DNA of 53,264 bases from a virus: positions 1 through 53,264 of IMG/VR virus record IMGVR_UViG_3300044940_000352, one strand, 5' to 3'. The position numbers and the translations under genes are program-made. Under the pieces are notes generated by a model. That model saw only the letters and a list, made by a program, of their open reading frames with translations. It had not been told where the DNA came from and made no database searches. Shown here piece by piece: positions 7,331 through 34,569 of this stretch (position 1 is its first letter; every line of letters starts with the position of its first letter).

Positions 7331-7777
7331 ATGTACGAAGTTAAACCTGTTTTATTTATTGATATAGATAGTACGGTTAGACAAACTGCATCGGGTAAAG
7401 CTTTCCCAGAAAATAAATATGATTATAAATTATATCCTGGAATTGAAGATAAAATTTGGAAATATAAAGACGCTAATTATGAAGTTGTTGGTTTATGTAA
7501 TAGCCAATTCAAATTAGAAAACATGTTTATTCGTAATCCTTTTTATTCTATTTATTATTGTTTTTATCCGCAAGATATAAAGTCAATTATACGTAAACCA
7601 GGGATAGGTATGATTGCTTTAGCAGAAAGAGATTTATTTTATAATTTTGTGATTATTGACTATAAAAATTCTATAGTAATTGGTGATAGAGTTGTAGACT
7701 CAGAGCTTGCACAAGCTTTAAAAATTAGGTTTATTTGGTCAGAAATTTTTCGAAATGGCGACACTTTTTTGTTTTAA
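7331..7777 (+). CDS. HAD-superfamily phosphatase
   Basis: A 148-aa protein with the four HAD motifs in order: FIDIDST (nucleophile D11 and acid D13), LCNS (S58, motif II), IRKPG (K89, motif III) and IVIGDRVVDSE (D119 and D123, motif IV). The short cap-less form resembles histidinol-phosphate phosphatase-like and polynucleotide 3'-phosphatase HADs, which in phages trim nucleic-acid ends or nucleotides. The substrate cannot be read from the sequence. Its 3' end overlaps the first copy of the repeated promoter-like element. Confidence 0.7.
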   Translation: MYEVKPVLFIDIDSTVRQTASGKAFPENKYDYKLYPGIEDKIWKYKDANYEVVGLCNSQFKLENMFIRNPFYSIYYCFYPQDIKSIIRKPGIGMIALAERDLFYNFVIIDYKNSIVIGDRVVDSELAQALKIRFIWSEIFRNGDTFLF

Positions 7778-7809
7778 TTTACTTACATTAATGAAAGAGG
7801 TAAATAACG
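7758..7809 (+). promoter_or_regulatory. GCGACAC promoter-like element, copy A
   Basis: GCGACAC at 7758-7764, a T tract, TTTACTT at 7778-7784, CATTAA at 7786-7791 (28 bases after the first G) and GAAAGAGG at 7793-7800, followed by the ATG at 7810. The 5' end lies inside the last codons of the HAD gene. It belongs to a seven-copy family in this window. Confidence 0.7.
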
Positions 7810-8409
7810 ATGAGAACACTTAAAGAGTTAGAAAAAAGACAAGAAGTAATAAGTTACGAAGAATTTGACCCAGAAAATTACGAAAATTGCTGTGTCGAAT
7901 CCTTGGATTATGGCGGTTTGTTAGTATACAAAGAGCAAGGCACACATTATATTGTTATAGACAACGGGGATGGGTATGGAATTTTCAAAACAAAAAATTT
8001 ACCCTGGGATCAAGTAAGCACAGAAACAAAAAGCCGAATCAAAGCTTTGATTAAAAAAAATACAACAAAAGTTGGACAAACCCCTGGGAATGCTAAAATA
8101 GCACCTAACGTGCTTAATAATGCGAATCTCAAGGATGCCGATCTTAAACTTAGAAAAGAAAAACAAAAAAGGAAAATCAGTATAATCAAAATTTACAAAT
8201 CAAACATTATGGTTTGGCTAGATGACGAGAACGGAGATAATGGAGAAACATTACATTTTTACAAGGACAACTATGAAACAGTCTCCGATCTTCCAACTAT
8301 CCAAGAATTAAGAATTGATTTAAACGTTACCTATAAAGACGCAAAAAATCTAAAAGAAACACTTGTCGGTGGATCGACAGGTAGTTTGTTTTTCTACCTT
8401 GCGGGTTAG
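7810..8409 (+). CDS. Hypothetical protein
   Basis: A 199-aa protein expressed from promoter-like copy A. The N-terminal part (to about residue 85) is an alpha/beta segment with YIVIDNGDGYGIFK. A central stretch has Asn/Ala/Leu repeats (NNANLKDADLKL) that look like a few pentapeptide-repeat units, then a very basic linker, then a beta-rich C-terminal part (ISIIKIYKSNIMVWLDDENG). Family not recognised. The stop codon falls inside a strong 12-bp hairpin. The pentapeptide-like stretch may relate it to the next gene. Confidence 0.65.
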   Translation: MRTLKELEKRQEVISYEEFDPENYENCCVESLDYGGLLVYKEQGTHYIVIDNGDGYGIFKTKNLPWDQVSTETKSRIKALIKKNTTKVGQTPGNAKIAPNVLNNANLKDADLKLRKEKQKRKISIIKIYKSNIMVWLDDENGDNGETLHFYKDNYETVSDLPTIQELRIDLNVTYKDAKNLKETLVGGSTGSLFFYLAG

Positions 8410-8447
8410 ATAGCTAGCCCGTAAGGATAGAAAAGTAAGCTTTTCTA
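8380..8447 (+). promoter_or_regulatory. Cluster of hairpins before the pentapeptide-repeat gene
   Basis: AGGTAG/CTACCT flanks a short loop near 8380-8398 and slightly overlaps the next stem. CTTGCGGGTTAG (8398-8409) pairs with CTAGCCCGTAAG (8414-8425) over 12 bp with a 4-base loop. TAGAAAAG (8428-8435) pairs with CTTTTCTA (8440-8447) with a 4-base loop. No T run follows, so these are not simple terminators in the + direction. They lie just before the GAGG at 8455-8458 and may protect mRNA or control translation. Confidence 0.5.
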
Positions 8448-8467
8448 AAAAAATGAGGTATAAAAGA

Positions 8468-9148
8468 ATGAAAAAACTAAGTAAAACTGAGATAGAAACA
8501 ATTTTGGAAAAACATAAATTATGGTTAGAGGGCATAGATGGTGGTGAGAGAGCTGATTTTAAAGACGCTGATTTAAGAAATGTCGATTTCAGAGATGCTG
8601 ATTTTAGAAATGCTGATTTCAAATCGGCTGATTTAAGAGATGCTGATTTAAGAGATGCTGATTTTAGAGATGCTGATTTTAGAAATGCTGATTTCACTTG
8701 TGCAAATCTTATGGATGCTGATTTTAGAAATGCATATTTGGCGAGTGTTAATTTTGCATATGCTAATTTAAGATATTCTGATTTCAGAGACAATAATCTT
8801 AACGATGCTAATTTCAGAGATGCCGATTTAAGATTTACTAATTTTACAAATGCAAATCTTATGAATGCTGATTTTAGAAATGCTAATCTCGAAAACGCTG
8901 ATTTTCGAGGTGCTAAGATATTTCTTTGTGTAGGAGATGGGATATACATAAAAAACATAATTGGTCTTAAATGGCATATTGCATTCACAAAAGACCAGTT
9001 AGCAATCGGATGCGAACAACACTCGATAGAAGAGTGGGAATCTTTCAGCGATGAAAGAATTTCAGAAATAGATTCGAAAGCTTTAAGATTCTGCAAAGAG
9101 TATAAAGATTTTATAATCCCCATAGTTAAGAAAATGAATGGGAGATAA
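8468..9148 (+). CDS. Pentapeptide-repeat protein
   Basis: A 226-aa protein. The start is placed at ATG 8468 with GAGG at 8455-8458; the ATG at 8453 overlaps that site. After a helical N-cap (LSKTEIETILEKHKLWLEG), about residues 30-155 are tandem A(D/N)(L/F)xx pentapeptides that form a right-handed quadrilateral beta-helix. The C-terminal region (HSIEEWESFSDERI...) is the usual tail of phage pentapeptide proteins. Some relatives mimic DNA and protect gyrase, but most have no known role. At DNA level the region is a degenerate 15-base repeat, and neighbouring near-identical units suggest recent slippage. Confidence 0.85.
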   Translation: MKKLSKTEIETILEKHKLWLEGIDGGERADFKDADLRNVDFRDADFRNADFKSADLRDADLRDADFRDADFRNADFTCANLMDADFRNAYLASVNFAYANLRYSDFRDNNLNDANFRDADLRFTNFTNANLMNADFRNANLENADFRGAKIFLCVGDGIYIKNIIGLKWHIAFTKDQLAIGCEQHSIEEWESFSDERISEIDSKALRFCKEYKDFIIPIVKKMNGR

Positions 9149-9164
9149 GAAGGAGATAAAAACG

Positions 9165-9476
9165 ATGAACAAAACAGTAGCTAAAACAATTTTTAATCAG
9201 TTAGGCGGAGATAGATTTCTAGTTATGACAGGGTCGAGTTCTGTCATAATCGAGAATGGCTTGTTATTAAAACTAAAAATAACTAGGGTTGCTAAGTATT
9301 TAGAAATTGTACTGAATGGAAACGATATGTTCGGAAACGATATGTACGATTTAACATTTTTTAATCTTGATCGTAAAAGTGGACAGAAAAAAATCAAAGA
9401 ACAAATAATGGATGTTTACGCCGAGCAGTTAGTTGAGATTTTTGAAAATTATACAAAATTGCGTACTCGGTTATAG
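9165..9476 (+). CDS. Conserved phage protein ('FLxMTG' type), function unknown
   Basis: A 103-aa protein starting at ATG 9165 with AGAAGGAGA upstream (9147-9155); an ATG at 9138 lies inside the previous gene. The pattern GGDRFLVMTG...LLLKL...LEIVLNGNDMYDLTFF...VYAEQLVEIFE matches a small protein found in many unrelated phages with the core 'NKFLAMTGAK...YDVEF...VYADQL'. Its function is unknown. Recognition is by eye. Confidence 0.7.
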   Translation: MNKTVAKTIFNQLGGDRFLVMTGSSSVIIENGLLLKLKITRVAKYLEIVLNGNDMFGNDMYDLTFFNLDRKSGQKKIKEQIMDVYAEQLVEIFENYTKLRTRL

Positions 9477-9480
9477 TAAT

Positions 9481-9690
9481 ATGATTATTTACATAAATGT
9501 TTTAAATGCGGATGGGTCGGTAACAAATATCGACTCATTAGATAGTTCTAAATTTAAAAGCGATTTTGATTTTAGAAAGGAAAGAAACAGAATAATAACT
9601 GAGTATAAAATGTTAGGTTTAGATTGTTTTTGGAATTTTTCCCAGACTTCTAAACCCGTATTTAAGTATAAAAAAGTAGGTAAAAAATGA
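9481..9690 (+). CDS. Hypothetical protein
   Basis: A 69-aa protein. I choose ATG 9481, just after the previous stop, because an upstream ATG at 9433 would overlap the conserved gene by 44 bases. No strong Shine-Dalgarno is seen for either. It ends in an ATGA overlap. The basic C-terminus and the FDFRKERNRIITEYKMLG helix are its only notable parts. Confidence 0.5.
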   Translation: MIIYINVLNADGSVTNIDSLDSSKFKSDFDFRKERNRIITEYKMLGLDCFWNFSQTSKPVFKYKKVGKK

Positions 9691-10067
9691 ATTTAAATTA
9701 TAAAAATATAAGTCTACAAATTCCCGACATAAAACAGTTGAGAAGAAAAGAAGATAGTTTGCAAGAGAATTCATACGAGCTTGTTTGTTTTGCGAAAGGA
9801 TCGGATGGATTAGTTTACTGTGTTCGGTGGGATGAAAAATCAGATGGTAGCTTTGATATAGAAAATCCAAATTCAGTTAAAGAACAAAAAATAAAAATTT
9901 TTAAGTTTGAAGTAGAAATAAAAGTTTTTGAAGATAAAATAACTGAAAATTTTGATTTATTAGATGCGGTCATTGAATACATTTTGTCGCAAAGTATTTT
10001 ACTGGACATTCCAGACTATGAAAAACAGATTTTTGTAAATAGGAATAGTTTGAAAAAACAGGAGTAA
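9687..10067 (+). CDS. Hypothetical protein
   Basis: A 126-aa protein coupled by ATGA to the previous gene. A beta-rich first half (SYELVCFAKGSDGLVYCVRW) is followed by a long helical, acidic second half. No recognised motif; no membrane segment. Confidence 0.6.
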   Translation: MNLNYKNISLQIPDIKQLRRKEDSLQENSYELVCFAKGSDGLVYCVRWDEKSDGSFDIENPNSVKEQKIKIFKFEVEIKVFEDKITENFDLLDAVIEYILSQSILLDIPDYEKQIFVNRNSLKKQE

Positions 10068-10072
10068 AGAGT

Positions 10073-10432
10073 ATGGATTTAGAAAATAGTGAAAAACTTT
10101 GTAATTATTTAGACCAAAAACTAAATTTAAAAAATGTTCAGGTTATTATTTTAAAACACAGGCTTAATAAAAATAGAATTATACTTGATAGTTTTGGAAA
10201 TCAAAAAAGCTTAGAGCAGTACTATGATCTTTTCCAGCCCATGAACAATCAAGTAGCTAATACAATAACAGATTTAATCGAGCCGATGGTTTTAGATTTA
10301 GCTGAGACAATTCAATTTTTTATGAATGACCATAATATAAAATCCAATTGGATTTTCGGTTTTACTGATTCAGCGATTTTAGAATTGGAAGACATAGCCT
10401 GTTTTAGAAATCAAGTTAAAAGCAGAATTTAA
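10073..10432 (+). CDS. Hypothetical protein
   Basis: A 119-aa protein with a Shine-Dalgarno AGGAG just upstream (about 10060-10064). It is largely helical, with a LIEPMVLDLAETIQFFM segment that is amphipathic rather than membrane-spanning. Family not recognised. The stop codon is directly followed by promoter-like copy B, so this is the last gene of its unit. Confidence 0.6.
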   Translation: MDLENSEKLCNYLDQKLNLKNVQVIILKHRLNKNRIILDSFGNQKSLEQYYDLFQPMNNQVANTITDLIEPMVLDLAETIQFFMNDHNIKSNWIFGFTDSAILELEDIACFRNQVKSRI

Positions 10433-10433
10433 A

Positions 10434-10484
10434 GCGACACTTTTTCTTTTTAGTTTACTTTTATAAATGAAAGAGGTAAAAACG
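10434..10484 (+). promoter_or_regulatory. GCGACAC promoter-like element, copy B
   Basis: GCGACAC at 10434-10440, a pyrimidine tract, TTTACTT, TATAAA at 10462-10467 and GAAAGAGG ending at 10477, then the ATG at 10485. It is essentially identical to copy F over the whole element, including the start codon. Confidence 0.75.
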
Positions 10485-10840
10485 ATGGAAATTAAATTAA
10501 GTCAAAATGGCAATCAGAGATTAAAAAAATAATCTTTATTATTTGCAAATATCAGGAATTGGTTCAAAAGATAGACGAAAATCATAAATTTAGAATGGAT
10601 CTTATACAGATGGATTCTGAGTTTCACGTTGAAAAAGTAGAAGAATACGAATACATAATATATGCGAAAAATTTAGAGAATAATCAAGAGTTGACTTGGA
10701 TAATTGTTGATGGTATTGCGGAAGAAAGAAAAATCCATACTTTGAAAAAGGAATTAGACCATCCCGTATTTCAAATAGAATGTATGTCGGATATATACAA
10801 AGATGAGGTCAGCACAACGCAATCATTTCATCGTGATTGA
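10485..10840 (+). CDS. Frameshifted gene (programmed -1 slip or broken gene)
   Basis: ATG 10485, with the standard GAAAGAGG of copy B, opens a 15-codon frame that stops at 10530-10532. Just before that stop lies A-AAA-AAA after TTA, a canonical -1 slippery heptamer. A -1 slip there joins it to the long frame that runs to 10840 without interruption (IIFIICKYQELVQKIDENHK onward, about 100 further residues). That long frame has only a TTG at 10559 with no Shine-Dalgarno of its own. Either the gene uses programmed frameshifting, or a one-base change has broken it, or translation starts at the TTG. Protein family not recognised. Confidence 0.5.
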
Positions 10841-10857
10841 TCTCTCAAACACAGTTT

Positions 10858-10890
10858 CCCGGTTCTGTTCAAAAACCGGGGTTTATTTTA
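10858..10890 (+). terminator. Intrinsic terminator
   Basis: CCCGGTT (10858-10864) pairs with AACCGGG (10874-10880), followed by a T-rich tract. It separates the frameshifted gene from promoter-like copy C. Confidence 0.75.
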
Positions 10891-10891
10891 A

Positions 10892-10942
10892 GCGACACTT
10901 TTTTAATTTGTTTTACTTACATTAATGAAAGAGGTAAAAACG
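10892..10942 (+). promoter_or_regulatory. GCGACAC promoter-like element, copy C
   Basis: GCGACAC at 10892-10898, a T tract, TTTACTT at 10913-10919, CATTAA at 10920-10925, GAAAGAGG ending at 10935 and ATG at 10943. Confidence 0.75.
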
Positions 10943-11119
10943 ATGAACAAAACAGAATTAAATCAAATAATTGAGAATGCAAATAACCGTTTTGGATACG
11001 AAAGATTTTCGTTTATAACTGGTTACAAGACCAGATATGGATTGCTCAACAAAAACGGGGTTGTGGAAAGAGTAATGGATAAAAAAGCATTTATCGCTCA
11101 TATCACTGAGCAATTCTAA
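10943..11119 (+). CDS. Small hypothetical protein
   Basis: A 58-aa protein. The start is ATG 10943, at the standard spacing from GAAAGAGG; the in-frame ATG at 10925 is part of the promoter/Shine-Dalgarno element itself. The sequence (ELNQIIENANNRFGYERFSF, then RYGLLNKNGVVERVMDKKAF) is alpha/beta and of unknown family. The hammerhead ribozyme begins two bases after its stop codon, so its message would be cut just downstream. Confidence 0.6.
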   Translation: MNKTELNQIIENANNRFGYERFSFITGYKTRYGLLNKNGVVERVMDKKAFIAHITEQF

Positions 11120-11120
11120 A

Positions 11121-11181
11121 ACCTCACTGATGAGCTTTAAATAAGCGAAACCTTCCCATGCAACTGGGAATGGTCTGAGGT
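11121..11181 (+). ncRNA. Type I hammerhead ribozyme
   Basis: All core elements of a self-cleaving hammerhead are present in order. Stem I 5' strand ACCTCA is at 11121-11126 and the core CTGATGA at 11127-11133. Stem II is GCTT (11134-11137) with AAGC (11143-11146) around a 5-base loop. The core GAAA is at 11147-11150. Stem III is CC-TTCCCA (11151-11158) with TGGGAA-(bulged T)-GG (11165-11173) and a 6-base loop. The cleavage triplet GTC is at 11173-11175 and stem I 3' strand TGAGGT at 11176-11181. Cleavage is predicted after C11175. The open stem is stem I, hence type I. The TGAGG of stem I is also the Shine-Dalgarno for ATG 11190, so folding hides it and cleavage should free it. Confidence 0.88.
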
Positions 11182-11189
11182 ACAAAACG

Positions 11190-12059
11190 ATGAAAACAGA
11201 TACTAAATATTTTAAAGCTTTATACGATTTTTGTGTAAATTCCGAAAAATTAACACAAAAAGACATTTGCGAATTTTGCAAAAATTACAAATCACAAAAT
11301 CTTGTAAATGTATCGCAAAAAGAGTCTTTGGCGTTTGCAAAAACTGTCATGCAAAAAAGAGCCGAAAGAAAACAAATCAAAGATGCAGAATTTGAAACTT
11401 TGAGAGATAGGTACAATTTGTCCAAGGTTTCTATTCTTTCTGAGTTATTTTTGGAAAAGTTTAAGTTCCTTGCGATCACCAAAAACCGAACAGTTTTTAC
11501 TGCAAGCGATGAAGAATTCGAATTGCTTAAAAGATATAAAACTGCCAAGTCAGGCAAGTACTTAAACTCACAATCGATTTACAGTGTTAATTTTTGTCTA
11601 TCGGACATTGATAGCGTTCCCAGAAAATTCCTTGTGATTGACGGGATTATCAATAAAAAGATTTACTCAAAAACCGTGAAACAAGGAATCACTTTGATCG
11701 ATGCGGAAGTTTTTGTGCAAGATGGTCGAGACATTGAAGCAAAAAGAGTTAAGATTGCGGTTCGTGGGAATTTTGCATATCACTCTGAAATTTCATGGGG
11801 CGACGCGATCGAAGGTTTGTACAAAAAAATCGATAAATCAGTCAAAAAATACTTTCGGCTCAACAATGTCACTTTAGATACTAAGATGACAAGAAGACTT
11901 TACTCTGAAATCACAGGGGCTTGTAGTTTTGGAGTAAATGAGTTTTGTAAAAAGTATGGCTTGGAAAATACAAAAGAAATTGCAGTCCGAGACTTGCTTC
12001 CAATTTTGGAAAGTGAAAACGCTTATGGATTGCAAATTTTGAAAAAAGCTTTAATATGA
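11190..12059 (+). CDS. Hypothetical protein downstream of the hammerhead ribozyme
   Basis: A 289-aa protein that I do not recognise. The N-terminal 90 residues are helical and basic (QKDICEFCKNYK, QKRAERKQIKDAEFE). The centre (YSVNFCLSDIDSVPRKFLVIDG, KRVKIAVRGNF) is beta-rich, and the C-terminus (YSEITGACSFGVNEFCKKYG, LPILESENAYGLQILKKAL) is helical again. GAGG at 11177-11180 is its Shine-Dalgarno, 9 bases before the ATG, and lies in the 3' strand of hammerhead stem I. No GCGACAC element precedes it, so it is expected to be read from copy C through the ribozyme. An intrinsic terminator follows. Confidence 0.7.
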   Translation: MKTDTKYFKALYDFCVNSEKLTQKDICEFCKNYKSQNLVNVSQKESLAFAKTVMQKRAERKQIKDAEFETLRDRYNLSKVSILSELFLEKFKFLAITKNRTVFTASDEEFELLKRYKTAKSGKYLNSQSIYSVNFCLSDIDSVPRKFLVIDGIINKKIYSKTVKQGITLIDAEVFVQDGRDIEAKRVKIAVRGNFAYHSEISWGDAIEGLYKKIDKSVKKYFRLNNVTLDTKMTRRLYSEITGACSFGVNEFCKKYGLENTKEIAVRDLLPILESENAYGLQILKKALI

Positions 12060-12066
12060 GATTTAA

Positions 12067-12094
12067 GGGAACCGATTTGGTTCCCTTTTTTTTT
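12067..12094 (+). terminator. Intrinsic terminator
   Basis: GGGAACC (12067-12073) pairs with GGTTCCC (12079-12085), followed by a long T run. The arms are identical to those of the terminator at 15136. Confidence 0.9.
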
Positions 12095-12101
12095 ATTCTA
12101 A

Positions 12102-12149
12102 GCGACACTTTTTTTTAGTTTACTTTTATAAATGAAAGAGGTAAAAACG
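12102..12149 (+). promoter_or_regulatory. GCGACAC promoter-like element, copy D
   Basis: GCGACAC at 12102-12108, a T8 run, TTTACTT, TATAAA at 12127-12132, GAAAGAGG, then ATG 12150. The spacing from GCGACAC to TATAAA is 25 rather than the 28 found in the other copies, a three-base shortening in the T tract. Confidence 0.75.
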
Positions 12150-12473
12150 ATGAGAACAGTAGAAAAACAAAATATTGAACTAGATAGTTCGGTTGATTTA
12201 TATCAAGAAACCATTACGGTTTATGGTGAGGATTCGGATGGAAATCTTTTATTTTCTATCGATGTCAACGGTAAGACAATTCCTCAAGCCTATGCAGAAA
12301 TCGGGAAAATTGTAAATTACAGAGAGTTCTGTGAAATTGTGCAAATTGCCCGATGGAAATACAGTAAGGAGCTTAAAGAGCACAACGAAAGAAACGCTGA
12401 TTCATATGCCTCTTATTGGAGAGGGAGTCGAGGAAAATCTTACTCTCACTATCGCAGAGAGTACGGAGCTTAA
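12150..12473 (+). CDS. Hypothetical protein
   Basis: A 107-aa protein starting at ATG 12150, at standard distance from GAAAGAGG; the ATG at 12132 belongs to the upstream element. An acidic beta-like N-terminal half (DLYQETITVYGEDSDGNLLF) is followed by a Tyr/Arg/Ser-rich basic tail (YASYWRGSRGKSYSHYRREY) that could bind nucleic acid. Family not recognised. It forms a single-gene unit with its own terminator. Confidence 0.6.
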   Translation: MRTVEKQNIELDSSVDLYQETITVYGEDSDGNLLFSIDVNGKTIPQAYAEIGKIVNYREFCEIVQIARWKYSKELKEHNERNADSYASYWRGSRGKSYSHYRREYGA

Positions 12474-12479
12474 TTTCAG

Positions 12480-12518
12480 AATCCTTCCAAGATTAAAAAC
12501 CTTGGGAGGATTTTTTTT
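12480..12518 (+). terminator. Intrinsic terminator
   Basis: AATCCTTCCAAG (12480-12491) pairs with CTTGGGAGGATT (12501-12512) over 12 bp with one G-U pair, followed by a T run to 12518. Confidence 0.9.
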
Positions 12519-12521
12519 GTG

Positions 12522-12574
12522 ACGACACTTTTTTAATTTGTTTTACTTATATTAATAACAGGAGAATAAATAAA
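12522..12574 (+). promoter_or_regulatory. GCGACAC promoter-like element, copy E (variant)
   Basis: ACGACAC at 12522-12528, a T tract, TTTACTT, TATTAA at 12550-12555. The downstream part differs from the other copies: the Shine-Dalgarno is CAGGAGA and the spacer to ATG 12575 is AT-rich. The upstream core is conserved while the translation signal is not, which supports a transcriptional role for the core. Confidence 0.65.
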
Positions 12575-13348
12575 ATGAATCAATCAATTTTACCAAAATC
12601 AGCTTTGGCGGTTTGTAAGCATTCTGATCGTACAGATAAATATAGATTTATCTCTACTTTGGAAGTTATCAAAGAAGCCGAAAAATACGGTTGGAACGTG
12701 GTTAGAACCGGTGAGGCAAATTTAAGAAAGAAATCTATCGAGCGAGGAATCGATGGTTTTCAGAAACATATAATCATCATGGAACATCCAAATTTTCGTG
12801 ATGGCAAGAAATCAATTCAGTTTTGCATTCGGAATTCTCATAACGGTACTTCCGGTTTGCAGTTGTTTATCGGATGTATGGTCGTGGCTTGTGCTAACCA
12901 GTTATTTTCCAAAGATATGCTGGGAAAAGGAAATGCAATTTCGATCCGGCACTCTGAAAACGGATTTCAAGCGATGAAAACATTTATTTCTCAGTTCGAT
13001 TTACTGGTAAATAAATTTGCAAATGGAATTAGACGTTTCGAGGAAAAAGTTCTTTCCCCAGAACAAGTAAAAGTTTTCGCTCAAAAAGCTATCGAGTTAA
13101 GATACGATTCAGAGCAGTTCAATCAAAGTACTGTAGAAGAATCTGTGCGATGCTTACACTTTGAACAAAAAGAAGACAATCTTTGGAATGTTTTGAATCG
13201 AGTTCAAGAGTCGTTGGTTAGGGGAAACTTGCATATTGTTTCGAAAAAAGGCAAGTTAAGAAGAACTAGAAAAATTAAATCTATGGAGGTACTTGTCGAT
13301 TTAAACACAAAACTATTAAATCTTGCTAACGATTTAGTCGAAGCATAA
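12575..13348 (+). CDS. DUF932 / TIGR03299-like phage-plasmid protein
   Basis: A 257-aa protein with the DUF932 pattern: YRFISTLEVIKEAEKYGWNV near residue 30, GFQKHIIIMEHP, a central IRNSHNGTSGLQLFIGCMVV segment, IRHSENGFQAM and a C-terminal VLNRVQESLVRGNL...GKLRRTRKIKSM. The family is widespread on phages and plasmids and its biochemical role is not established. It is somewhat short for the family and has its own promoter-like element and terminator, as a stand-alone early-type unit would. Confidence 0.8.
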   Translation: MNQSILPKSALAVCKHSDRTDKYRFISTLEVIKEAEKYGWNVVRTGEANLRKKSIERGIDGFQKHIIIMEHPNFRDGKKSIQFCIRNSHNGTSGLQLFIGCMVVACANQLFSKDMLGKGNAISIRHSENGFQAMKTFISQFDLLVNKFANGIRRFEEKVLSPEQVKVFAQKAIELRYDSEQFNQSTVEESVRCLHFEQKEDNLWNVLNRVQESLVRGNLHIVSKKGKLRRTRKIKSMEVLVDLNTKLLNLANDLVEA

Positions 13349-13370
13349 AATCTCTCACAACAATTTACTA

Positions 13371-13402
13371 TACCCGTCAATTTTTTGGCGGGTATTTTTT
13401 TT
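13371..13402 (+). terminator. Intrinsic terminator
   Basis: TACCCGTC (13371-13378) pairs with GGCGGGTA (13387-13394) with one T-G wobble, followed by eight T residues. It ends the DUF932 unit; the next gene has a strong AAGGAG Shine-Dalgarno but no promoter-like element, so some read-through or an unseen promoter is needed. Confidence 0.85.
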
Positions 13403-13416
13403 AAGGAGTAAAAAAA

Positions 13417-14028
13417 ATGAATAAAATAATAGAAAAAATAATTAATAAAAAAACTAATTTAAACAATTTCATTTTAGTTGAACCATCTAAGAATAAAAAA
13501 GTAAATCGGTTTATTGCAACTGATTTAAGTTCTCTAGTCGTTGTTCAATCTGATTTATTTGGGAAGTATTGGAGTAAGTCACAATATTTAAGGTATCCAG
13601 AATTAGATGGATTCAATATTGCCGACTTTCATGTAAAATTAAAAGAAGAATGGAGGAATGTGATTAAATTAAAAGTATCGGAAAGTGTCTACAAGCTGAA
13701 TTTAAAAAAAGAAAAAGGTGTTAAGAAAAAAGATAAAATAAAATACGTTAGTATTATTCCTTTTTGTAATGTATGTATCGACGTGTTTTATTTTAATTTA
13801 TTGATTGGTGAAAACTGGACAGTAATGCTTAATAAACCGGTACCGCAAAAGTTAACGTTTATTAATGAAGATAAAAATATTTTGTTTGTAGTTTGTCCGT
13901 TCAGGCACGAATTCGTACAAAGTATAGAAAACGACCCCAGTTTTTTAAAACAGAATCATCTTGCTAGTAACGTGGAAGCCAAAGAAGTGAGAAACTTTTT
14001 GGATGCTTACCATGTTCTTGTGGAGTAG
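13417..14028 (+). CDS. Hypothetical protein
   Basis: A 203-aa basic protein with TTAAGGAG upstream. It has mixed alpha/beta content with a lysine-rich centre (YKLNLKKEKGVKKKDK) and a hydrophobic beta segment (YVSIIPFCNVCIDVFYFNLL) that is probably a buried core. Family not recognised. It ends 3 bases before the next gene. Confidence 0.6.
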   Translation: MNKIIEKIINKKTNLNNFILVEPSKNKKVNRFIATDLSSLVVVQSDLFGKYWSKSQYLRYPELDGFNIADFHVKLKEEWRNVIKLKVSESVYKLNLKKEKGVKKKDKIKYVSIIPFCNVCIDVFYFNLLIGENWTVMLNKPVPQKLTFINEDKNILFVVCPFRHEFVQSIENDPSFLKQNHLASNVEAKEVRNFLDAYHVLVE

Positions 14029-14031
14029 ATT

Positions 14032-14397
14032 ATGCAATGGTCAAAAATAAAACACAAAAGAAAATTTAAGAGGTATCTTATTGCCGTTGCAAAAGGAGCT
14101 GATTTTGGTGATAGACTAAGAATATTAATGTCTTTGTTTGGTGATAGAAAGTCAAGTTGTACTTTTTTTGTCAAACCATCGGAAGAAGTTCCTTTGACTT
14201 TAACAGTCGTTGCGGTGATAGAAGAATCCAATCTATTTGCGATTTATGGTTTTGATATATTAGACAAAATAGAAAAAAGTAAACTATCGGGGGATAGTTA
14301 TTTTTCTGATTTTGTTTCTTTTCATGACCTTTATCGAGGTGGGGATTTAGTTCTGGACTTGCCAAATTATGTTCAAGAGTTCGTGAATAATAAATAA
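14032..14397 (+). CDS. Hypothetical protein
   Basis: A 121-aa protein in an operon with the previous gene. The basic N-terminus (SKIKHKRKFKRYLIAVAKG) is followed by alternating beta strands. No motif recognised. Its stop codon directly precedes promoter-like copy F. Confidence 0.6.
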   Translation: MQWSKIKHKRKFKRYLIAVAKGADFGDRLRILMSLFGDRKSSCTFFVKPSEEVPLTLTVVAVIEESNLFAIYGFDILDKIEKSKLSGDSYFSDFVSFHDLYRGGDLVLDLPNYVQEFVNNK

Positions 14398-14448
14398 GCG
14401 ACACTTTTTCTTTTTAGTTTACTTTTATAAATGAAAGAGGTAAAAACG
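14398..14448 (+). promoter_or_regulatory. GCGACAC promoter-like element, copy F
   Basis: GCGACAC at 14398-14404, a pyrimidine tract, TTTACTT, TATAAA at 14426-14431, GAAAGAGG and ATG 14449. It is the same as copy B throughout. Confidence 0.75.
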
Positions 14449-14633
14449 ATGGAAAATTTAGTCGATCAAATAATTGCTTATGAATCCGGTGAAATGACTG
14501 AATCTGAAATGATTGAATTTTTTCAAAGTATTTTGGATTCTAAATTAGTTTGGATTCTAAATTAGTTTGGCAATTACAAGGACATTACGGTCGAACAGCT
14601 CAAAATCTTATTGACGCTGGGTTGATTGGATAG
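14449..14633 (+). pseudogene. Small conserved phage protein (DUF7417-like) broken by a 17-bp tandem duplication
   Basis: ATG 14449 reads ENLVDQIIAYESGEMTES and onward, then stops at 14563-14565 after 38 residues. A 17-base unit at 14535-14551 is repeated exactly at 14552-14568. Removing one copy restores an uninterrupted frame of about 55 residues to a TAG at 14631-14633, whose end (VWQLQGHYGRTAQNLIDAGL) is the hallmark of a small phage protein family of unknown function, YE.GE...EEeiI.lFq.LidsGlaWqLQGhYGR. The break looks recent, as both units are identical. A 38-aa product may still be made. Confidence 0.8.
14535..14568 (+). repeat. 17-bp perfect tandem duplication
   Basis: Two exact adjacent copies of a 17-base unit beginning GGATTCTAAA, at 14535-14551 and 14552-14568. 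Because 17 is not a multiple of three it shifts the frame of the host gene and exposes a TAG stop. Confidence 0.95.
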
Positions 14634-14641
14634 TTTTTAAA

Positions 14642-14676
14642 GGGGAGTCCATTTCGGATTCCCCTTTTTTTTATTT
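14642..14676 (+). terminator. Intrinsic terminator
   Basis: GGGGAGTCC (14642-14650) pairs with GGATTCCCC (14656-14664) with one G-U pair, followed by a T run. Confidence 0.9.
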
Positions 14677-14693
14677 TTAGGAGAGATATAAAA

Positions 14694-14867
14694 ATGATTC
14701 AGAAAATAAATTCATCCAGTGAGCTAAATTTTAAAAATAATCGGGAAAAAGAAAATAAAAGCCCATCCAATAGCAAAGATAAATCCCAGGAATTTTTAAA
14801 TCTGTTAAAACAATCAGAACCTAAAAAACCAGTTAAAACCTGGTTTGCAAATCCGTGGAAAAAATAA
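14694..14867 (+). CDS. Small hydrophilic hypothetical protein
   Basis: A 57-aa frame with AGGAGAGA upstream at 14679-14686. It is rich in Lys, Asn and Ser, probably disordered, and ends in a KTWFANPWKK tail that looks like a conserved short linear motif. Its TAA is immediately followed by promoter-like copy G. The clear Shine-Dalgarno and the fit between a terminator and a promoter support it; function unknown. Confidence 0.55.
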   Translation: MIQKINSSSELNFKNNREKENKSPSNSKDKSQEFLNLLKQSEPKKPVKTWFANPWKK

Positions 14868-14917
14868 GCGACACTTTTTTGTTTTAGTTTACTTCTATTA
14901 GTGTAAGAGGTGAGCAA
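14868..14917 (+). promoter_or_regulatory. GCGACAC promoter-like element, copy G (variant)
   Basis: GCGACAC at 14868-14874, a T tract, TTTACTT, TATTAG at 14896-14901 and AAGAGG before ATG 14918. The 5' half matches copy A closely; the region between the -10-like box and the start is diverged. Confidence 0.7.
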
Positions 14918-15124: not shown

Positions 15125-15135
15125 AAAACATTTAA

Positions 15136-15161
15136 GGGAACCATGCCGGTTCCCTTTTTTT
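15136..15161 (+). terminator. Intrinsic terminator
   Basis: GGGAACC (15136-15142) pairs with GGTTCCC (15148-15154), then seven T residues. It closes the accessory block. Confidence 0.9.
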
Positions 15162-33441: not shown

Positions 33442-34238
33442 ATCGAGTCAGTTATTCACATTATGGAGTCACTCAGAAACAAATAGTAAATTTGTTACAA
33501 GCGGAACTAAATCAATACAAATTAGATGACGTTGGACAAATACTAAATAATAGAACTATAAAGATTCAAGTGACTTTAGATCATCCGCTGATGGTTCTTG
33601 CCGGAGCTATTCTTTTTAGTTCGGGTGCAAACTTACCGGATATAAATGGAATGTTTCCCAGAATTTCGGTGACAGACGCAAGTCACAGAGAAAAAGAAAC
33701 TTCTATAGGTCAAGGAATCAAAGATTATTCAATATTAAAAACAAGTGATATTCAAAACTTTAAAAACAGTATGGGATCAATGAAAGATCGAATTGATAAA
33801 GGCTTGTTAATAACTAATCAGCAAGTGGACAATATGTTAGCAATTACAGAGTCCATAGGTGGTGAGGCGATTTTAATGCGACAACAAGTCATGCAAGATG
33901 TAACTTATTATATATCTGTTTGGTGTTTGAGTATTGACGAAAGAATAGTTTTAACTCAAATTATGGAATCCACTTTATTTGGATTAAAACAAGAGTTAAT
34001 AAAACAAGGATTTAGAAACCCACAAATTAATACAGATACAGGTATCACAAATTCTAATTTTGGTAGAATGATTTTTGGTTCTGAACTAGAACTTACTGGT
34101 ATTAATACTATTACGAATTATACTTTATTTAAAGAAAAACCTTTAAAAAGTTATAATTTAGAATCGTTTCCAAATTTTTTAAAATTCGGAGATGAGAACT
34201 TTGAACCTTATAGAGTATGGAGTAAAGAAGATGAGTAA
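33438..34238 (+). CDS. Putative tail-completion / neck protein
   Basis: A 266-aa protein between the gp10-like gene and the sheath. Mixed alpha/beta; IKIQVTLDHPLMVLAGAILFSSG is hydrophobic but not a clear membrane span. Position suggests a tail terminator. No family is recognised. Confidence 0.5.
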   Translation: MNRVSYSHYGVTQKQIVNLLQAELNQYKLDDVGQILNNRTIKIQVTLDHPLMVLAGAILFSSGANLPDINGMFPRISVTDASHREKETSIGQGIKDYSILKTSDIQNFKNSMGSMKDRIDKGLLITNQQVDNMLAITESIGGEAILMRQQVMQDVTYYISVWCLSIDERIVLTQIMESTLFGLKQELIKQGFRNPQINTDTGITNSNFGRMIFGSELELTGINTITNYTLFKEKPLKSYNLESFPNFLKFGDENFEPYRVWSKEDE

Positions 34239-34569
34239 AAAACTAGATCAAAAACTGGATGAAAAACCAGATGAAAAACATAATGAAAAACATAATGAAA
34301 AACATAATGAAAAACATAATGAAAAACATAATGAAAAACATATTTCTTTATTAGAATTTATTGCAAATTTTTCAGGAATTAGAAGTGATGGAAATTATTT
34401 AGAAGTTGCATTTAAATCATATTGTAAAGAAAATAAGATAAATGACAGGGTTTCCGAGGAAACCTGGAAGGCAAGGTTTGATTTTTTTAAAGAAAGTCCC
34501 CCTTCTAAAACATTGCCCGATTATTTAAAATCAAAAACTAAATCAAAAATTATGAAAGGCGGTCAATAA
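34231..34569 (+). CDS. Small protein with EKHN tandem repeats
   Basis: A 112-aa protein. ATG 34231 is chosen since GGAG at 34220 lies at a fitting distance; an upstream ATG at 34192 is inside the previous gene. Residues about 15-38 are a run of Glu-Lys-His-Asn tetrapeptides encoded by a 12-base tandem repeat. The C-terminal half (LLEFIANFSGIRSDGNYLEV) is a compact helical domain. It lies just before the sheath gene; function unknown. Confidence 0.55.
   Translation: MSKKLDQKLDEKPDEKHNEKHNEKHNEKHNEKHNEKHISLLEFIANFSGIRSDGNYLEVAFKSYCKENKINDRVSEETWKARFDFFKESPPSKTLPDYLKSKTKSKIMKGGQ
34261..34344 (+). repeat. 12-bp in-frame tandem repeat (EKHN)
   Basis: Five exact copies of GAAAAACATAAT at 34273-34332, flanked by variant copies at 34261-34272 and 34333-34344. 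The unit is a multiple of three, so copy-number change would keep the frame. Confidence 0.95.

Follow-up and report, generated by a model that had tools for sequence, protein, structure and literature searches.

A hammerhead ribozyme motif with the Shine-Dalgarno sequence of a phage gene in stem I

Hammerhead ribozymes beside phage genes

Hammerhead ribozymes of phages and prophages have been found to flank genes, and the processing of transcripts into gene-length mRNAs was proposed (Perreault et al. 2011, PMC3088659). The sections of that study dealing with phage elements report cleavage of polycistronic RNAs in vitro, for one set also in E. coli, as well as a variant hammerhead (HHphage) of the haloviruses HF1 and HF2 that is followed by a start codon after 13 nt, the mapped transcript end being at most 3 nt away from its cut. 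Both there and in PMC6155905 the role of phage hammerheads is called an open question. Ribozymes engineered to embed the Shine-Dalgarno (SD) sequence have been used to control translation in E. coli (PMC5052635, PMC10966536), which indicates that a mechanism of this kind would be physically workable.

The element considered here was found in the window, i.e. the whole stretch of DNA analysed, a viral record 53,264 bases long with 31.8% GC. With the type I phage hammerheads (PMC3088659) it shares the core, the three helices, the open stem I, the predicted cut and the position between phage genes, while it differs from those presented there in that the SD forms the 3' strand of stem I, and in being one copy rather than a set flanking several genes. 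HHphage of HF1 and HF2 has in common with it the location shortly upstream of a start codon, but its core is a variant one, its hosts are archaeal viruses, it was discussed as salt-responsive, and the passages devoted to it describe no SD masking. Embedding of the SD in the ribozyme is what likens the locus to the synthetic SD-sequestering hammerhead and twister switches (Wieland & Hartig 2008, as presented in PMC5052635 and PMC10966536). In the accounts given there, cleavage of such switches frees the SD and turns translation on, whereas for the window element release is predicted; furthermore, they are engineered and usually combine the ribozyme with an aptamer for a chosen ligand, whereas the window element is natural and no aptamer was seen.

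A search of the open-access literature (subscription papers and preprints being outside its scope) yielded no description of natural SD masking by a hammerhead. The glmS ribozyme, comparable as a natural RNA that cleaves itself ahead of a bacterial coding region, differs in its fold, in its need for a metabolite cofactor and in that cleavage lowers expression. The sequence-only reading of this DNA had regarded a hammerhead serving directly as a translation switch for a phage gene as new. This view has to be narrowed, since processing and the halovirus case are already found in PMC3088659, and it is the SD-masking form that appears to be undescribed in nature. The element is best considered as a further phage hammerhead, of a variant whose ribozyme includes the ribosome-binding site (RBS). 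If the mechanism discussed below is true, it would represent a natural version of the switch built by hand in synthetic biology, and a subclass with the SD in stem I permits a clean test of cleavage-dependent translation.

The hammerhead motif and its two-gene unit

The structure lies on the + strand and contains, in order, the invariant core CUGAUGA, GAAA and an NUH triplet together with three helices, as expected for a type I hammerhead. Stem I is open-ended and consists of 6 bp, as checked pair by pair and with the covariance model described below, between ACCUCA (11121-11126), an anti-SD sequence, and UGAGGU (11176-11181), the SD of the gene starting at 11190. The core segments CUGAUGA (11127-11133) and GAAA (11147-11150, with A15.1 at 11150) were located by a core-pattern search, and enclose stem II (11134-11146), in which comparison with its class and inspection of the pairs identified 4 bp between GCUU (11134-11137) and AAGC (11143-11146), closed by the loop UAAAU. 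Stem III (11151-11174), obtained by fold prediction, carries a bulged U11171 and the loop UGCAAC, and is made up of the A15.1-U16.1 pair, CC/GG and UUCCCA/UGGGAA, so that it counts 9 bp with A15.1-U16.1 and 8 bp without. The cleavage triplet, established base by base, is GUC (11173-11175), and cleavage is predicted between C11175, the C17 of the consensus, and 11176, the position after C17 being the established site of hammerhead cleavage. Comparison with the class also delimits the spacer ACAAAACG (11182-11189) between stem I and the start codon. These features coincide with those proposed in the sequence-only reading, namely a complete type I hammerhead with the full core, helices of 6, 4 and 8 bp, one bulge in stem III, and a cut that the consensus position would place after C11175.

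When the segment 11119-11184 was folded, the minimum free energy (MFE) and the centroid structures were both the hammerhead, at −20.1 kcal/mol compared with −11.2 kcal/mol (s.d. 2.7) for shuffled sequences (z, −3.3). The core pattern occurs once in the whole 53-kb window, with 0.03 occurrences expected. The UAAAU loop fits the UNNNU loop of the class with a 6-bp stem I and a 4-bp stem II, and the A residues before and after stem I (positions −7 and +6) are kept; the latter, A11182, is the A just 3' of stem I that is conserved in 46 of the 53 class members, and is followed by C11183 (+7) where A is usual. As regards a peripheral tertiary contact between the flank of stem I and loop II, which may form here, the signature of the class is thereby retained for the most part. 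For some upstream and downstream extents of the folded RNA the predicted probability of the hammerhead fold fell to 0.02-0.2, values that are usual for other viral hammerheads with the same energy model.

A covariance search with the Rfam models had been proposed as a check by the sequence-only reading. It gave no match in the window at the gathering thresholds, the best matches below the cut-offs being RAGATH-1 (RF03152, 25.4 bits) and HH9 (RF02275, 24.3 bits), which are the nearest Rfam models; the gathering threshold is a curated score cut-off and not a defining property of a ribozyme. Because of this outcome, a separate model was built from other viral hammerheads. Viral contigs were scanned with the pattern CTGATGAGC-N4-14-GCGAAAC-N6-20-GTC, leaving stem I free, and 47 other viral hammerheads with a 6-bp stem I and a 4-bp stem II, among the matches listed, formed the training set, which included neither the window or any near-identical sequence nor any other sequence from the window's phage. 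The helices of the training set covary strongly, with 98.9% of the cells paired as compared with 37% when the strands are slid by one column, a figure to be read bearing in mind that the finder had required pairing. With this model, 11115-11191 scored 57.1 bits (E, 1.6e-14), the next best position in the window reaching 14.3 bits.

These results bear on the possibility that the motif is a chance or decayed one and inactive. The scores below the Rfam cut-offs, C11183 in place of the usual A, and the low fold probability in some contexts are compatible with it, but the E value of the covariance model, a runner-up 43 bits lower, the rarity expected for the core and the correct genomic position make it a very improbable explanation. 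The hammerhead is confirmed as a sequence and structure motif, and its self-cleavage is predicted.

The element is flanked by two co-oriented genes on the + strand, neither of which could be assigned to a family. The upstream one (10943-11119), an open reading frame of 58 codons, gave no confident match in family searches, and its TAA stop codon (11117-11119) is two bases before stem I. The downstream one (11190-12059), an open reading frame of 289 codons, gave nothing at useful E values in PHROGs, Pfam, PDB and phage records. Ahead of the upstream gene lies a copy (10882-10940) of a promoter-like direct repeat, family D4, which includes the standard RBS of that gene, and 12065-12092 is an intrinsic terminator with a 10-bp stem and a T tail. 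The D4 repeat is present in seven copies within 7748-14916, starting at 7748, 10424, 10882, 12089, 12512, 14388 and 14858; it has the form GCGACACTTTTTT..TTTACTT..ATTAATG before genes, and most copies end with the RBS GAAAGAGGTAAAAACGATG. The window contains two near-identical terminators, 12061-12092 and 15130-15161, of the form AAGGGAACC..GGTTCCCTTTTTTT.

Between the two genes there is neither a promoter-like repeat nor a terminator. Within the unit, the 11190 gene alone lacks a promoter-like repeat of its own, and the hammerhead occupies that place. The arrangement is thus intercistronic, and the unit is likely to be formed by promoter, 58-codon gene, hammerhead, 289-codon gene and terminator. 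The earlier proposal that the ribozyme splits the mRNA of the two genes fits this arrangement, in which the presumed promoter upstream and the terminator downstream would yield a single transcript.

The Shine-Dalgarno sequence as a strand of stem I

The segment UGAGGU contains the only plausible SD of the 11190 gene, GAGG, with a 9-nt spacer, and it matches the phage's recurrent RBS, GAGGTAAAAACGATG. The predicted cut would leave a 14-nt leader, 5'-OH UGAGGUACAAAACG-AUG, which nearly equals the leader that the phage's presumed promoters would make, GAAAGAGGUAAAAACG-AUG; the similarity suggests that a standard RBS is being used as one strand of stem I. As the sequence-only reading had it, the SD constitutes the 3' strand of stem I; it is predicted to be paired before the cut, with a probability of being unpaired of 0.04 in 11060-11230, which rises to 0.55 when folding starts from 10925 (10925-11230) and is about 0.43 in the short product after cutting. 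Release by self-cleavage, also proposed there, is supported by the energy model, in that the predicted cost of opening the RBS of the 11190 gene drops from 3.8 kcal/mol in the uncut RNA to 1.6 kcal/mol in the cut RNA in a local comparison, with gains of 2.2-2.6 kcal/mol across comparisons, although this model is ignorant of the hammerhead core and of tertiary contacts, and the values vary with the stretch folded.

The best-supported reading, which we hold to be somewhat probable, is that a constitutive type I hammerhead processes the two-gene mRNA and unmasks the SD. The analysis itself shows the motif with its statistical and comparative support, its position, the overlap with the SD and the recurrence at seven unrelated viral loci; cleavage in the cell, co-transcription, release of the duplex and the effect on translation are steps that we infer. 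Both genes would be transcribed together, and the hammerhead would fold once the stop codon at 11117-11119 is clear of the ribosome. The cut after C11175 would then divide the bicistronic transcript, giving two mRNAs. Until that point stem I would hold the SD, whereas afterwards only a 6-bp intermolecular duplex would remain, which should fall apart and expose the ribosome site, so that the second gene would be translated from the 14-nt leader. Against processing combined with unmasking stand the low probability of the hammerhead fold for some extents of the RNA, the lack of covariation within this locus, the SD being just approximately 43% unpaired in the short cut product, and the SD lying inside stem I in only one of 99 viral hammerheads listed.

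The latter count was obtained from a survey of the layout of viral hammerheads in general. Among the matches listed, 118 had enough flanking sequence, stem I being unconstrained. A frame of 40 codons or more with an ATG start begins 6-50 nt past the cut in 96 of the 118 listed (23% of random sites), the stop codon of a long frame is found within 30 nt upstream in 73 of them (9% of random sites), and both flanks, stop and start, are present in 64 (54%, against 2.5% of random sites). In these listed matches the distances from cut to ATG peak at 25-27 nt and the stop codon mostly touches or lies within stem I. That phage hammerheads process mRNAs in general is not new; the counts of this stop/ribozyme/start layout support the idea and make it quantitative. 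A 40.5-kb viral contig (L010, IMGVR_UViG_3300009515_000005) has five hammerheads according to the covariance model, and the four that were inspected are all intergenic and followed by an SD and an ATG.

In the 99 listed hammerheads for which the position of the SD was scored, it is downstream of stem I in 60, inside it in one, while none was found in 38; an SD in stem I as an enriched feature overall was therefore rejected in this listed sample, in which stem I was left free. Since most viral hammerheads in the stop/ribozyme/start position keep the SD outside stem I, at least among the matches listed, their common role would be mRNA processing, and the overlap with the SD could be compaction. 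Accordingly, one has to consider that the ribozyme merely separates the two mRNAs, with consequences for their ends and stability (5'-OH and 2',3'-cyclic phosphate), and that the SD overlap is a by-product of compact packing, which would have arisen when a standard RBS already in place, GAGGTA..AAAACGATG, came to form the 3' side of stem I. This reading, to which we assign a distinctly lower probability than to processing with unmasking, is favoured by the prevalence of the layout with the SD downstream of stem I, by the window leader being nearly the phage's standard RBS, and by the little time that fast constitutive cleavage would leave for masking to matter; the evidence that argues against it comes from other loci with the SD in stem I, considered below.

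The stronger proposal of a translation switch, made in the sequence-only reading, is not supported in a regulatory sense. No ligand-binding domain or other sensor is visible in the fold, where the 5-nt loop on stem II and the 6-nt loop on stem III leave no room for an aptamer, and the predicted gain is modest (approx. 2 kcal/mol) and dependent on the stretch folded. A regulated switch could still operate through translation of the upstream gene, in that ribosomes at its stop codon would occupy CUGAUGA together with the 5' strand of stem I, delaying folding and cleavage and coupling the two genes, or through a host or phage factor. The stop codon two bases before stem I, and its abutting or overlapping stem I in most viral examples listed, agree with such a coupling, but a ribozyme that has to stay clear of the coding region would be expected there anyway, and with no sensor or aptamer seen we consider regulation improbable. 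A switch based on pairing of stem II/loop II with 11207-11218 in an alternative helix (approx. −10 kcal/mol), which would undo the hammerhead, was also evaluated and was dropped, since most other viral hammerheads likewise lose the predicted stem I in longer folds.

Other viral loci and the phage context

Directed scans of viral sequences, in which stem I was required to carry GAGG or GGAG, yielded 13 distinct folding hammerheads, the window copy included. In eight of them, again with the window copy, a start codon is found 13-17 nt past the cut and thereby at an SD working distance, with spacers of 8-12 nt. Leaving out the window, an ATG lies 11-17 nt past the cut in 7/12, as compared with 2/98 in the listed sample with stem I free (Fisher p, 8e-7). 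The predicted gain in RBS opening on cutting has a median of 2.3 kcal/mol at the eight SD-in-stem loci and of 0.26 kcal/mol at the 98 others listed (p, 7e-5). The eight downstream frames are mutually unrelated in sequence, with a local GC content of 0.32-0.68, and the stop codon of a long frame is 4-8 nt ahead of the core in seven of the eight loci. Seven of the eight also have an above-chance model score or a hammerhead fold by inspection; the MFE fold of L020 is not a hammerhead, though its letters permit one, and the downstream frame of L116, which is repetitive, is perhaps not a gene.

As controls, the reversed-complement stem (GGAG..CTCC) gave three stretches, none of which folds as a hammerhead, and the same SD pattern applied to bacterial and archaeal genomes gave 31 stretches with no hammerhead by fold check. 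These chance matches in cellular genomes indicate that the pattern by itself means little when it is not accompanied by a fold check. Four further letter-pattern matches (L021, L146, L147 and L150) had no hammerhead fold and were excluded.

Thus, the comparison of sequences shows that the layout with the SD in stem I is not a one-off, as it is present at seven other unrelated viral loci. This recurrence among phages that are not related, together with suitably spaced start codons and a higher predicted release of the SD, argues against mere separation of the mRNAs with compact packing. It does so only partly, for recurrence shows that the SD is used as an RBS and not that masking matters. By extending the reading of processing with unmasking to these loci, a recurrent natural class of phage hammerheads may tentatively be proposed, of independent origins. 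Stem I of such hammerheads would use the RBS of the next gene as its 3' strand, the cut would both create the 5' end of the mRNA and license its translation, and the abutting stop codon may link this to translation of the upstream gene. By eye, five viral loci (L014, L015, L020, L006 and L009) have UGGU in loop II and ACC after stem I, which might pair into a pseudoknot extending over the SD-to-start-codon spacer as well, and in L014, L015 and L020 an additional base separates CUGAUGA from stem II.

With respect to the phage itself, the presence of a tail sheath gene indicates a contractile-tailed phage, and the head protein and the terminase are approximately 25-28% identical to those of distant phages of Bacillus, Listeria, Staphylococcus and others. 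The element is unchanged in two viral contigs, one of which is identical across all 6.9 kb compared. The other, L005, is a mosaic, whose match to the window begins at about 10930 and becomes full identity from 10993 up to the end of L005 at 13681, the DNA before 10930 being unrelated; ahead of the same upstream gene it has a sigma-70-like promoter, TTGACT-N16-TATATT, that replaces the D4 repeat. Relatives of the downstream gene were found in near-identical contigs only, and, the close relatives being identical over the element, there is no covariation within the locus. Similarity searches identified no cultured phage with the element, and the weak BLAST matches to the Pseudomonas phages Ep020 and PPSC2 are without a hammerhead.

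Three further coding regions on the + strand may be mentioned. The 148-residue protein encoded by 7331-7777 resembles polynucleotide kinase in its 3'-phosphatase part (PNK3P, Pfam E, 1.1e-8). Enzymes of this type act on 3'-phosphate or cyclic-phosphate ends, which are those left by hammerheads, and a link between this protein and the ribozyme would be a matter of speculation. At 8453-9148 an array of 15-nt repeats encodes five-residue repeats (ADFRN-like), so that the product looks like a pentapeptide-repeat protein, and 34192-34569 encodes a protein with a run of HNEK repeats.
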